Virus record (IMG/VR): IMGVR_UViG_3300010970_000034
Coordinates: 1-33,963 of that record
Reading direction: 5' to 3' (one strand)
Source: a virus
DNA: 33,963 nucleotides
The first letter of the stretch is position 1. Every line of letters starts with the position of its first letter. The position numbers and the translations under genes are program-made. Below the pieces are notes generated by a model. The model ran no database searches, was not told the origin of the DNA, and worked only from the letters and a program-made list of their open reading frames with translations. Shown here in pieces: positions 881 to 33,537 of the stretch.

Positions 881-980
881 AGTTGTTGTCGTGAGAAACA
901 ACTAAGCCGTTTAAGTCTGTGTCTTGCCCCGAATTAGGGGTTCTCACCAAGATGCAGATTAAAGCGGCTTTTTGTTTTTT
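881..980 (+). ncRNA. Candidate structured RNA ending in an intrinsic terminator
   Basis: Seen directly: hairpin 1 pairs AGTTGTT (881-887) with AACAACT (897-903). A long hairpin 2 pairs 904-914 with 959-970 (11 bp, G964 bulged), then 916-925 with 949-958 (10 bp, two GU pairs), then CCCC 927-930 with GGGG 937-940. The outer stem is followed by TTTTTGTTTTTT, as in an intrinsic terminator. The loop of hairpin 1 (GTGAGAA, 891-897) is complementary over 7 nt to the unpaired TTCTCAC (941-947), which would make a pseudoknot-like contact. No open reading frame runs through it. I do not recognise the family. It could be a small RNA or an elaborate terminator or attenuator for transcripts leaving the Cro-like gene. 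Confidence 0.6.
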
Positions 981-10673: not shown

Positions 10674-10985
10674 TTAAGTCCCCATGTCACCAGTATATTT
10701 TGGCGCTTGAGCATTAGCCGAATCAAACATACCACCAGTTTGTGCTTGACCAAGTTTAAGTCGGGCAATGTAGTCTTTATAATCCTGCATATCGCCTTGC
10801 TGATTAAACTGGTTGTACATTTTCATCGCATCTTGTACGCCGCCAAACGGGTTCTGTGACGCTGCTTGACCCATTGATTGCGGCATCTCTTGTTGCCCAC
10901 CTTGCAGCGGAGTCTGTTGGGCTTGCTGTTGCAGCATCTGCGCCATTTTCTGTTGCGGAGAAAGGTTTACATATTGATTAAGCAT
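10674..10985 (-). CDS. Small Q/M-rich virion protein
   Basis: 103 residues dominated by Gln, Met and Asn (QQKMAQMLQQQAQQTPLQGG; MKMYNQFNQQGDMQDYKDYI). It begins inside the end of the PP-loop gene (ATGCTTAA overlap) and is followed after two bases by the 533-residue protein. The composition matches its ejection-type neighbours. Likely a minor internal virion protein; inference from context only. Confidence 0.5.
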   Translation of the reverse strand: MLNQYVNLSPQQKMAQMLQQQAQQTPLQGGQQEMPQSMGQAASQNPFGGVQDAMKMYNQFNQQGDMQDYKDYIARLKLGQAQTGGMFDSANAQAPKYTGDMGT

Positions 10986-11670
10986 CGCAATTCCTTAATA
11001 ACTCTAAAGTAGGCAACAAGGCAGACTTTAGTGCCGCCATGTTTATTTTATATTTTTCATGCAAATTTGGGTGTTTTTCTTTCATCCATGCCACTCGATC
11101 CGTTGAGTGTGCCAAATACGCTGTGCAATCGTAACAATCAAGGCTTGAATGGTCGATTGCATAATGTTCTGGTAACTGGCATTGAGTCCTTAAAAACGCC
11201 AAAACTTGCTCTTTAGTCCATGTTTCTATCGGCTGAATGTACGTCACACCATTCACTACCGACCCATGCCGAGCCGTGGATTTGTGGCTTTCATCTAGCC
11301 TTTGCCCACGAATCAAATGCGTAATGCCACGTTTTGCAATTGCCTCTGTCAGAGGTTGCCCAACGTTTGACCAACAGCAATTCAAATAACTCTGTACTCT
11401 TACTGGTTTATCGCCTGCAAACACCATACCTTCAAGGCTATGGTCAACCGGCACAACATCACTTGGGTAGCCGTAAAACTTAATTTGCTGTTCTTGATCT
11501 GACTTAACCTCAATAAACTCAACCGCCTCTGCTTTTACCTGTTTGATGATCTCCATCGTTTCAGGGTAAGACTTACCAGTATTTGCCCAAAAGACGATGG
11601 GATTCTTTTCACGGTACAAGTACCAACACGCTAAAGAATCCTTCCCGCCTGAGAACGCTAATCCAAGCAT
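10978..11670 (-). CDS. PP-loop ATPase, PAPS-reductase/DndC-like
   Basis: 230 residues. The PP-loop SGGKDS is at residues 7-12; VFWANTGKSYPET follows, then the family motif IRGQRLDES at 120-128. Cysteines at 97-99 (NCCW) and 178-182 (DCYDC) could bind metal or take part in sulphur transfer. The family adenylates substrates and includes PAPS reductases, DndC and tRNA thiolation enzymes; the substrate here cannot be told. Its location is odd: inside the block of ejection-type virion genes, coupled to both neighbours by overlaps, far from the early metabolic genes. No dndB/D/E partner is present, so classical phosphorothioation is unlikely. Confidence 0.8.
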   Translation of the reverse strand: MLGLAFSGGKDSLACWYLYREKNPIVFWANTGKSYPETMEIIKQVKAEAVEFIEVKSDQEQQIKFYGYPSDVVPVDHSLEGMVFAGDKPVRVQSYLNCCWSNVGQPLTEAIAKRGITHLIRGQRLDESHKSTARHGSVVNGVTYIQPIETWTKEQVLAFLRTQCQLPEHYAIDHSSLDCYDCTAYLAHSTDRVAWMKEKHPNLHEKYKINMAALKSALLPTLELLRNCDA

Positions 11671-27894: not shown

Positions 27895-28220
27895 TTGGTT
27901 ATTTTCTCAATTTGTCGGTTACTGGCCTGCTCGGTGCGCCAGGCATCAAATCGCATTTGTGCGCTAGTCATGCGCCATTTAAGCAACTCGGCCTGCTCAG
28001 TTGCTGCCCCAATAGCGTCGCAATGGGTTTGATATTTTGGGTGAGCGTAAGCCTCACGTTCTTGACCTCCAATGCTAGTTTCTCCTGATTCCTTCATCAG
28101 AATAGCTTTTAGGCTTGACTTAAACGCCTCCAGTTGCGCCAGTTCTCCCTTTGCTTTGGCATATGCCGGCGCATTGTCCCAAATGTACTCAATAGCGGGA
28201 TGTGGGCTGTATTCACTCAT
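27891..28220 (-). CDS. Conserved phage protein of unknown function (109 aa)
   Basis: Starts MSEYSPHPAIEYIWDNAPAY; a helical, charged body includes AKGELAQLEAFKSSLKAILM and AEQAELLKWRMTSAQMRFDA-type text. Phage proteins of this style lie downstream of methyltransferases and recombination genes and are annotated hypothetical. Its ATG overlaps the stop of the methyltransferase restored frame (ATGA), which supports that frame as the native 3' end. Confidence 0.6.
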   Translation of the reverse strand: MSEYSPHPAIEYIWDNAPAYAKAKGELAQLEAFKSSLKAILMKESGETSIGGQEREAYAHPKYQTHCDAIGAATEQAELLKWRMTSAQMRFDAWRTEQASNRQIEKITK

Positions 28221-28923
28221 TTAAGTAACTCCCATGCAGTTGCTGCACATAAAGGGACTTGTCCATTACCAATGGCTTTAAGTCTGTCCACCCTGGCGGG
28301 AATCCCATTAGCCACTCTGAGAACATCGGGTTCGGTACTCCACCAAGACAATCGGCTAGATTGTGATTTATTCCGTGTCTTTCCCGAAAACCTGACCCAC
28401 TCATCCCTTTGTAATCCCGTGTTGTTGGCGTTACATACTGCCCTAATCCAAATCCTCTCTCTGAGATGGTTTGCACCAACGTCGGCAGCTGATACAACGC
28501 CCCATTTTGCATCAAACCCCATTTTGGAAAGGTCTGCAAGGACAACTCCAAGTCCTCTAGAAGTGAGGATTGGGCTGTTTTCCACAAAAACGTATTGGGG
28601 TCTAACCTCGCCAATGATCCTTGCCATGTGTTTCCACATTGAGGATTTTGGGCCTTCAATTCCTCCCCCCCCCCCGACGCTGAAATGTCTTGGCAGGGAA
28701 ACCCGCCAGATACAACGTCAACAATTCCTCGCCACGGGTATCCGTCAAAGGTTTGTACGTCATCCCATATCGGGAAAGGCGGGAGAATTTTGTCATTTTG
28801 TCTGGCGCACAATACGCTTGCTGGGTATTGTTCCCACTCAACGGCGCAGACTGTTCGCCATCCAAGGAGGTGTCCCCCAAGTATTCCTCCACCAGCGCCT
28901 GCGAAAAGAGCCAACTCATTCAC
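28213..28923 (-). CDS. Uninterrupted ORF through the methyltransferase locus (alternative frame after the G run)
   Basis: 236 residues. Residues 1-80 are the methyltransferase N-terminus. After the G run the frame stays open for over 150 codons and does not look random: SLLEDLELSLQTFPKWGLMQ, NGALYQLPTLVQTISERGFG, TPTTRDYKGMSGSGFRERHG and FSEWLMGFPPGWTDLKPL. From memory this style of text (WPKWG..NG, TPT..D, EWLMGxPxGWTDL) occurs in C-terminal regions of other phage and bacterial Dcm-like proteins. The same DNA therefore seems able to encode two plausible tails. Whether this frame is used is untested. Confidence 0.4.
   Translation of the reverse strand: MNELALFAGAGGGILGGHLLGWRTVCAVEWEQYPASVLCARQNDKILPPFPIWDDVQTFDGYPWRGIVDVVSGGFPCQDISASGGGEELKAQNPQCGNTWQGSLARLDPNTFLWKTAQSSLLEDLELSLQTFPKWGLMQNGALYQLPTLVQTISERGFGLGQYVTPTTRDYKGMSGSGFRERHGINHNLADCLGGVPNPMFSEWLMGFPPGWTDLKPLVMDKSLYVQQLHGSYLNE
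28217..28923 (-). CDS. C5-cytosine DNA methyltransferase, interrupted at a G11 run
   Basis: The GTG start at 28923 has GGGG about 6 nt upstream. The first part carries motif I FAGAGGGILGG (7-17) and motif IV GGFPCQDIS with catalytic C77. At 28675-28665 the coding strand has 11 G. The frame that continues the family moves there: GGIEGPKSSMWKHMARIIG, VFVENSP (motif VI), DVGANHLRERIWI (motif VIII) and RVDRLKAIGNGQVP (motif X). Nine or twelve G would put the two parts in one frame. The result is a phase-variable, frameshifted or wrongly sequenced gene. When intact it would methylate cytosines, perhaps protecting phage DNA from restriction. Confidence 0.75.
28665..28675 (-). repeat. Homopolymer of 11 G (coding strand) inside the methyltransferase gene
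   Basis: A run of 11 C on the plus strand falls just after the catalytic PCQ motif. Such mononucleotide runs are slippage-prone and act as on/off switches in bacterial methyltransferase genes. They are also a common place for sequencing errors, and the sequence alone cannot separate these. Confidence 0.95.
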
Positions 28924-29554
28924 TTAGTCCCCTTTCGTTAATGTCGTAAAACCAATCGTCACCAGCTGACCACTTGCGTGACCCGTCTACAGTCCAAATG
29001 TGGCGTGATGCTTGAAAGTCTGGAAAGTCCGTTTTAGCCGGTATCAGCGACTGGTCGTACCAAAGGCAACGATTATTAGGCTGCGCTGAAAACTGACCAT
29101 TATCTAGCCGGATAAAATTAAAACTTTTGTGTTCCTCTGCTTGTTCTGTAAACCCTGTGTCTACATCCATACCGTCGGCACAAAAGTCTACGGTGAAAAG
29201 GTATTTACCAAAGTGCCATTCTTTGTCTTTACCTAAGAATTTGACCCCAAGGTTACGCAATCCGATCTTTTCATGGACTGTGAACCTGTAGCCCATGCAA
29301 TCCCATAGCTGCAATATGTCGTAATCCAAATCCCCATGCTTAGTATTCCAAACGTAAGCCTGGATAGGCAGTTTGTCGTAAAGTGCGCCGTATCTTGGCA
29401 ACAAACTTTCAATGCGGAACACTTGCCCACGGATTGCCTTGATGCTCACCCAAATGCAAGGCTCAAGCTCACCGTGGCCTTTCTCAAAGTTGTACAAATA
29501 CTCTCGCCGTACAAAACATTTAATTGGCGGTAGGTTTCCAATGATGTAGCTCAT
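28916..29554 (-). CDS. Conserved phage protein of unknown function (212 aa)
   Basis: The start is chosen at the ATG at 29554, which overlaps the upstream stop (ATGA); an extension of 11 codons is open but uncoupled. Text includes MSYIIGNLPPIKCFVRREYL, HGELEPCIWVSIKAIRGQVF and CLWYDQSLIPAKTDFPDFQA. It is beta-rich with many aromatic residues. Similar proteins are seen next to phage methyltransferases and replication/recombination genes and are annotated hypothetical. No active-site motif is recognisable. Confidence 0.6.
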   Translation of the reverse strand: MSYIIGNLPPIKCFVRREYLYNFEKGHGELEPCIWVSIKAIRGQVFRIESLLPRYGALYDKLPIQAYVWNTKHGDLDYDILQLWDCMGYRFTVHEKIGLRNLGVKFLGKDKEWHFGKYLFTVDFCADGMDVDTGFTEQAEEHKSFNFIRLDNGQFSAQPNNRCLWYDQSLIPAKTDFPDFQASRHIWTVDGSRKWSAGDDWFYDINERGLSE

Positions 29555-29847
29555 ATCAAATCCATTTGTTTTGGCATAACCTTCCATTCCCTCTCGGCCC
29601 GACCTGACTTACTTTGCACATTGCGACCAGTTAAAAGAATCTCGTAATTGCGTTCTAATTCACTAAGCCGTCTAGCAACTTGGTTGCCATCAAGTCCTGT
29701 AATCGTGGCTATACCGTCTTTTCCTTGCGGGCCATACCTAAGTAAGGCATCAAGCACCATTTGACCGTGTAGACCCGCTAAGACCTTGGCACGGTCAGCT
29801 GCGTCCCAACTGGTTGACGGATCGGTGTTTCGAGCGACTTGGTTCAT
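29551..29847 (-). CDS. Winged-helix-like DNA-binding protein
   Basis: 98 residues from the ATG at 29847 (ATGA overlap). MNQVARNTDPSTSWDAADRA is a frequent opening of phage proteins with a following winged helix. LDALLRYGPQGKDGIATITG, then LDGNQVARRLSELERNYEIL and GRAEREWKVM, give the helix-turn-helix and wing. It probably binds DNA and may regulate early transcription. Upstream extension in frame is less likely. Confidence 0.65.
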   Translation of the reverse strand: MNQVARNTDPSTSWDAADRAKVLAGLHGQMVLDALLRYGPQGKDGIATITGLDGNQVARRLSELERNYEILLTGRNVQSKSGRAEREWKVMPKQMDLI

Positions 29848-32928: not shown

Positions 32929-33537
32929 TTAAATCTCCCAGTTTGCTTTAAATTCGTCGTATGCGGCTTTCAGCGGAGTTTGTTGTTCTTTCAAACAAGA
33001 CACCCAAGCCTCTTTAAAAATGTCTTTCAAGTTTTCGTAACTAACCGCCGAGGCCATTAACGCTTTGGTGTGATCCAGTTCGATGCCTTTAGGCTTTTCA
33101 ACCTTTGGCGCAACCTGGTGCGTTTGAGCGTCGGCATCGTTATCGCCTTCAGTCGGAATACAAAACGATTGCATACACGCATACTTGTAAGCCGCTGACA
33201 TTGCTTTGTTAGTAGCCTTATCACCGCTATCCATAGCCTCGCCAAACGTTTTAATTGTGTGCTTGCTACCGTCAGCTGCAACTAGATCAAACTCGACCTC
33301 AACGGTAATGTAGAACAATGCGCCACCAGCTTTACTTTGACGCTCGACTGATTCTCTGTTTAAAACTCTAGGGAGTATGCACAAACCATGCTTTGCTAAG
33401 AATGGTGCAAGAGCGTTATACACATCGTCGATACCTCTAAAAGCGTATCCCGAACCTTGCATATTTTTACGGTCTTTTGAGATGCCTTGTGTAGAAAGGT
33501 CTTTTTGAACTGCGGAAATTGCTTGATAAACATTCAT
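32929..33537 (-). CDS. erf: ERF-family single-strand annealing recombinase, right allele
   Basis: 202 residues. MNVYQAISAVQKDLSTQGIS, GSGYAFRGIDDVYNALAPFL, KTFGEAMDSGDKATNKAMSA and AYKYACMQSFCIPTEGDND are the ERF domain. A linker carries EKPKGIELD, then MASAVSYENLKDIFKEAWVS. The protein anneals single strands. It belongs to another ERF subtype than the allele at 1-455, but the linker and following residues are closely similar. It is followed by ssb, small genes and the exonuclease, making a complete recombination operon driven by the conserved early promoter. Confidence 0.9.
   Translation of the reverse strand: MNVYQAISAVQKDLSTQGISKDRKNMQGSGYAFRGIDDVYNALAPFLAKHGLCILPRVLNRESVERQSKAGGALFYITVEVEFDLVAADGSKHTIKTFGEAMDSGDKATNKAMSAAYKYACMQSFCIPTEGDNDADAQTHQVAPKVEKPKGIELDHTKALMASAVSYENLKDIFKEAWVSCLKEQQTPLKAAYDEFKANWEI

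Follow-up and report, generated by a model that had tools for sequence, protein, structure and literature searches.

A structured RNA behind a Cro-like gene

The DNA analysed here, referred to as the window, comprises positions 1-33,963 of the 33,963-nt virus record IMGVR_UViG_3300010970_000034. Near its start, on the plus strand, lies a gene for a Cro-like HTH protein of the P22 Cro type (562-777; Pfam PF14549, E = 3.8e-07; PHROG transcriptional repressor). It is followed on the same strand by a promoter (850-878), a compact structured RNA element (881-980), a long noncoding structured element of about 330 nt that we call type X (983-1307) and a gene for a small HTH-like protein (1396-1668), a homologue of which follows the O/P genes in MW202520. 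The RNA element is placed between the Cro-like gene and the position at which replication functions are found in relatives, hereafter the replication position.

The promoter consists of TTGACA (850-855), a 17-nt spacer and CAGAAT (873-878), as the earlier note on this DNA had read it. A scan of the window returned two promoter-like sites where 1.6 were expected, and the promoter alone would not stand out. Among relatives, the hexamers stay near the consensus, the spacer measures 17-18 nt and the distance from the long hairpin P2 described below is nearly constant; the promoter is kept in L041 and L053 despite a quite different sequence between cro and the RNA.

Further sequence features were observed around the promoter. 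The cro 3' region (785-872) carries a conserved pattern (GCCTTTAGCAAGC..GAAAC..GTTTC, AGGTTAGCTTTAGACCT), and the promoter spacer holds an inverted repeat (CATCGGAAAGACGGTG) whose arms change together between relatives while its centre is conserved; this repeat may represent an operator or else a hairpin in the RNA. In eight loci (L006, L045, L063, L068, L069, L070, L072 and L075), another element with long complementary ends, TGTTGGTATGTGAAAGCGG...CAGCGAGTAACATACCAACA, lies between cro and the RNA and looks like another structured RNA.

The element itself is made of two hairpins, at 881-903 and 904-970, in agreement with the earlier reading. The 5' hairpin P1 (881-903, AGUUGUU/AACAACU), recognised from sequence and covariation, holds in its loop the strand GUGAGAA (891-897), which is perfectly complementary over 7 nt to UUCUCAC (941-947), a strand placed immediately 5' of the P2 3' strand and supported by covariation. 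The second hairpin has outer arms AAGCC...GGCTT and is built on P2, a helix of 22-23 bp whose 5' strand (904-926, AAGCCGUUUAAGUCUGUGUCUUG) pairs with 948-970; the 3' strand is evident from sequence, relatives and covariation, and its lower part is the terminator stem. At the apex, P3 (927-940, CCCC-GAAUUA-GGGG) is read from the sequence and is swapped in relatives for other apical sequences that form one or more hairpins. P2 runs into the U-tract of an intrinsic terminator (969-980, UUUUUGUUUUUU), which closes the element as had been described and has counterparts in relatives. The region folds at -44.6 kcal/mol against a shuffle mean of -22.1 (z = -6.6; 0 of 200 dinucleotide shuffles as low), the base of this minimum-free-energy fold differing from the structure named here and the pseudoknot not being representable in it.

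The structure covers nearly the whole predicted transcript. Transcription is expected to start at about 884-885, inside the 5' strand of P1, and because the promoter keeps a near-fixed distance and the RNA ends in a terminator hairpin, we expect a discrete transcript of about 95 nt here, with its 3' end at the U-tract. In relatives with longer apical parts, the predicted RNA would reach up to about 145 nt.

Elsewhere in the window, a 433-base repeat occurs at 449-881 and again at the contig end (33531-33963), with 99% identity over the first 300 bases, and the two copies are preceded by different Erf-like genes (3-455 and 32929-33537). The genome is probably circular and about 33.1 kb long, with an assembly that joined recombinase genes from two strain variants. 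Genes at 10978-11670, 28217-28639 and 28916-29587 (-) match phosphoadenosine phosphosulfate reductase, DNA cytosine methylase and a 'ferredoxin' PHROG (host-takeover or auxiliary type).

Covariation of the pseudoknot and the long hairpin

We collected IMG/VR relatives of both the Cro-like and the downstream HTH-like protein and, in each, inspected the noncoding DNA that follows the Cro gene. The sample, gathered mostly through the Cro-like neighbour, is biased towards this position; the contigs are related, and the counts given here refer to non-independent events. Most relatives have the same architecture with a different sequence. In an alignment of 32 distinct homologues, 94.8% of the cells of the structure proposed in the earlier note, pseudoknot included, are paired, and 20 of the 34 pairs show changes on both sides. 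Cells with both-side changes number 120 against 32 in shuffles, the covariation score is 0.429, compared with 0.201 for shuffled alignments and no more than 0.104 for slid structures, and displacing the partner strand by 1-3 columns reduces the paired cells to 38-49%.

The pseudoknot carries the clearest signal: all seven pairs form in 32 of 32 sequences through 12 distinct arm pairs (three rows having been re-registered by one base), among them GTGAGAA/TTCTCAC, GTTGCAG/CTGCAAC, TTGGTCG/CGACCAA and GTGATGG/CCATCAC, and both sides change in six of the seven pairs. Similarly, 96.9% of P2 cells are paired, with both-side changes in 12 of 22 tested pairs, and an additional P2 pair (913/961) covaries, being A-U or U-A in 30 of the 32 sequences and A.A in the window only. 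P1 is less regular than either (85.6% of cells paired). The check by compensatory changes that the earlier note had proposed comes out strongly in favour of the 891-897/941-947 contact and the long hairpin, and only partly in favour of P1, where two of five tested pairs change on both sides. The pseudoknot-like contact suspected from one sequence is confirmed by these homologues, and its systematic covariation bears out the remark that there is more structure here than a simple terminator needs.

G-U (G-T) cells outnumber A-C cells by 93 to 24 in the alignment, which indicates that the plus-strand RNA is the strand under selection. An origin of the structure on the antisense strand was rejected on this G-U usage together with the strand scores of the model, and minus-strand matches of the model proved to be mirror images of the long hairpin. 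The sequences of loops and apical hairpins are not conserved among relatives, and few unpaired positions are, which argues against a classic ligand-sensing riboswitch. Judged from the alignment, the structure is not due to chance, and the element represents an RNA family with an unusually clear pseudoknot, proven by covariation.

Distribution and exchange of RNA classes

A scan of the window with Rfam 15 yielded zero families at the gathering score, and a sensitive scan of 500-1450 returned only chance-level matches on the minus strand (E = 4.2 and 4.9), consistent with the earlier failure to assign the RNA to a known family. The element at 881-980 belongs to an RNA family, here called class A, that Rfam 15 does not include. 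Dozens of related IMG/VR phage contigs carry it; among nine long records it is never found in more than one copy, and it is single-copy in all five that carry it. A DNA similarity search of phage and plasmid records found no class A relative, and the class A model found none in 399 genomes of the Achromobacter order, the latter being weak evidence without a positive control.

The sole neighbour-independent search was a pattern scan, whose pattern was derived from class A sequences. It added the true members L235, L237, L251, L255 and L266, of which L255 and L266 have a different upstream neighbour in place of the Cro-like gene, yet type X sequence again follows the RNA. Pattern matches in L228, L241, L243, L268 and L273 were set aside as chance matches to the pattern.

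Other RNA classes are found in the same slot. Class B follows the same plan as class A but has two pseudoknots, and its members are L005 (= MW202520), L052, L071, L075, L083, L187, L188, L192, L200 and part of L266. The first pseudoknot joins the P1 loop to a strand by 7-8 bp in all eight members tabulated, and the second joins the linker to a hairpin loop and covaries (TGGACA/TGTCCA, TCAGCA/TGCTGA, CCAACA/TGTTGG). MW202520 has the double-pseudoknot class B RNA and not class A; there, the RNA overlaps UOF78209.1 (L005:3063-3281), annotated as a 'hypothetical protein', which is probably not a protein gene. On the L266 contig, class A and class B lie about 600 bases apart (about 12349 and 11753, reverse complement). 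Class C (L049, L051, L069 and L072) has a long terminator hairpin and no supported pseudoknot; its loop-strand pairing is short and was not seen to covary, and we do not count it as a member of the family but as another RNA in the slot.

Long noncoding RNAs or O/P genes downstream

One of several long noncoding elements lies downstream of class A, B or C RNA, and replication genes lie downstream of class B. Type X, the element in the window, is represented by 25 distinct sequences with 81% mean column identity and long invariant runs; 16 predicted pairs show changes on both sides, and it has no Rfam match. The long elements taken alone have unremarkable minimum-free-energy z-scores, and the support for type X comes from comparison. 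Its start lies 22 nt beyond P2 in 135 of 152 cases, counted over overlapping and non-independent loci, and the window scan placed no promoter-like site between P2 and type X. In the same place, a type Y element occurs in L003 (minus strand, about 1920-2180) and a type Z element in L065 and L083. Type Z contains a match to the Rfam family RF02932, Betaproteobacteria-1 (L083:3928-4053, 83 bits), directly downstream of class B, which suggests that the RF02932 model covers only part of a longer RNA. At RF02932 sites in Achromobacter-order genomes, no upstream pseudoknot RNA was seen by eye in those that were read.

In other relatives, the place of the long element is taken by protein-coding genes. 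The O-like protein of MW202520 is a DUF1376 protein with matches to PHROG primosomal and replication-initiation O-like families, and the same genome has a gene annotated as replication protein P. About a dozen bases separate the end of the class B U-tract from the start codon of the O-like gene in L005, L187, L188 and L200. O/P genes are missing from all 38 distinct long-RNA variants whose downstream sequence extends to at least 1.5 kb, no type X, Y or Z element occurs in a locus with O/P genes, and among the nine long records O/P genes occur only in G403, which has no long RNA. The O/P genes and types X, Y and Z never co-occur and are mutually exclusive.

Type X replaces protein initiator genes at the same position, as is looked for in an RNA-based replication origin. 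Among the window proteins searched, which did not take in every small ORF, no initiator, helicase or primase was recognised, and GC skew gave no origin signal beyond that of gene orientation. Judged by its position and by mutual exclusion, the long RNA could serve, in place of O/P, as a preprimer or an RNA-based origin.

A proposed leader terminator of the replication module

We tentatively favour, with somewhat less than even confidence, a reading in which the element is a leader terminator (attenuator) that acts in cis on the replication module, bears a pseudoknot and, in addition, gives rise to a stable short RNA. Comparison shows a consistent order on one strand, that is promoter, P1-pseudoknot-P2, U-tract, and then either O/P-like genes or a long RNA. 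This is the layout of an attenuator, in which promoter, structured leader, terminator and regulated gene follow one another on the same strand, with the O-like gene in the last place after class B and type X here. Most transcripts would stop at P2 and give the stable RNA of about 95 nt, and the remainder would read through into the replication position. The fraction reading through would be set during transcription by folding of the pseudoknot, or by whatever binds it, and would dose the mRNA of the replication proteins or the long RNA. The head of the RNA, a pseudoknot whose second strand is transcribed immediately ahead of the final terminator strand, would set the passage of the polymerase and may itself act as the switch.

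The same class A subtype occurs ahead of X, Y and Z, and subtypes reassort with the downstream types. Specific pairing of the small RNA with the downstream RNA is unsupported on account of this reassortment, and a terminator needs none. By analogy, we infer an attenuator-like element in the position of nutR/putR and tR1 of lambdoid phages, a likeness of place and not evidence of homology. Speaking against the leader model, the terminator hairpin looks complete and no covarying alternative (antiterminator) pairing was noticed in the alignment, which leaves the regulation of readthrough unexplained.

The main rival, possible and nearly as likely as the leader model, is a free-standing gene for a trans-acting small RNA, in which the RNA of about 95 nt would be the product, binding in the infected cell to another RNA or to a protein of the host or the phage, and its position would reflect gene order and not control in cis. 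The element has its own near-consensus promoter and a complete terminator, its structure spans almost the whole predicted transcript, and its subtypes reassort freely with X, Y and Z. On the other hand, the RNA adjoins the replication position in the contexts examined, even without a Cro-like neighbour, class B sits in the expected leader of the O gene, and the unconserved loop and apical sequences argue against an antisense RNA to one fixed target. At the other extreme, we find it hardly credible that the element is just a transcription terminator whose additional structure is incidental: a strong hairpin with a U-tract does close it, but the pseudoknot, superfluous for a terminator, covaries systematically, and P1 and the pseudoknot stand at the 5' end of a promoter-driven transcript.

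Two other readings concern the pseudoknot more directly. The RNA could be a decoy or mimic by which the phage titrates a host protein of defence or of RNA processing, for instance by imitating a type III antitoxin RNA. The compact 5' H-type pseudoknot, the retention of the fold while the sequence changes and the exchange of three RNA classes in one slot, as an arms race might give, are in keeping with it. It is nevertheless improbable: the RNA has no tandem repeats, the neighbours searched encode Cro-like, HTH-like and unknown proteins but no toxin, and a decoy leaves the tie to the replication position unexplained. We give an equally low weight to the proposal that the 7-nt contact forms between two molecules, in a homodimer or multimer. 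In a crude rigid-helix model, the contact within one molecule did not close as long as P1, P2 and the pseudoknot were all fully formed, but closed with longer linkers and a P2 about four pairs shorter, which suggests strain when P2 is fully paired; moreover, a kissing contact of GOLLD, earlier found by covariation, proved to be intermolecular (PMC12286853). However, the rigid-helix model ignores bends and mismatches in P2, it closes with a longer P1 such as that of L067, and intramolecular pairing is the simpler reading.

Taken one step further, the leader terminator and the long RNA could together form a protein-free replication module, in which a preprimer RNA, dosed by a pseudoknot-gated 5' terminator, replaced the O/P initiator genes while the upstream slot for a control RNA was kept. 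We regard this combination of the small pseudoknot RNA with type X as speculative and rather unlikely. The element adds a pseudoknotted family to the leaders, terminators and small RNAs of phages, where few folds are known. Its place ahead of either protein genes or a long RNA also offers a directly testable case, for a tailed phage, of an RNA standing in for the proteins that initiate replication, as well as of a modular exchange of RNA control elements.

Comparison with known systems

In phage lambda, nutR and tR1 lie between cro and the replication genes O and P and include a terminator; tR1 depends on Rho, nutR serves N as a short boxA/boxB signal, and there is neither a pseudoknot nor a separate promoter. 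The element described here resembles nutR/tR1 in its position between cro and replication genes and in its terminator, and differs in having a pseudoknot and its own promoter. ToxI, the RNA of a type III toxin-antitoxin system, is an H-type pseudoknot RNA linked to conflict between phage and host. The element shares the H-type pseudoknot with this antitoxin, but it is not tandemly repeated and has no ToxN-like toxin gene among the neighbours searched. As with RNA I and RNA II of ColE1, a short structured RNA adjoins a longer noncoding RNA at a replication position; whereas RNA I is antisense to RNA II, the short RNA here lies on the same strand, upstream of type X.

With respect to large structured RNAs, Betaproteobacteria-1 (RF02932) lies within type Z in L083 but matches neither the window nor type X. 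GOLLD and ROOL are structured RNAs of phages and prophages with kissing interactions and no settled function (PMC12286853); they are far larger than the element and of another architecture, and neither they nor any other Rfam family match it.

The put RNA of phage HK022 suppresses termination through the zinc-binding domain of the RNA polymerase beta' subunit. It is about 70 nt long and V-shaped, with a triplex and no pseudoknot named, and its two copies, putL and putR, act in cis in antitermination, suppressing downstream terminators with no protein devoted to the task (PMC9378689). Put thus shows that the leader RNA of a phage can by itself act on RNA polymerase (PMC9378689). The class A element also has two hairpins in an early region, in an early-operon position comparable to that of putR downstream of PR, but a covarying pseudoknot joins them. 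It further differs from put in carrying its own terminator and in being single-copy in the five long records with class A, where HK022 has two copies. In mycobacterial prophages, Rep proteins and RNA-based origins occur as alternatives (PMC7157519), and the phages described here resemble them in that an RNA, in the putative role of type X, may stand in for a Rep protein.
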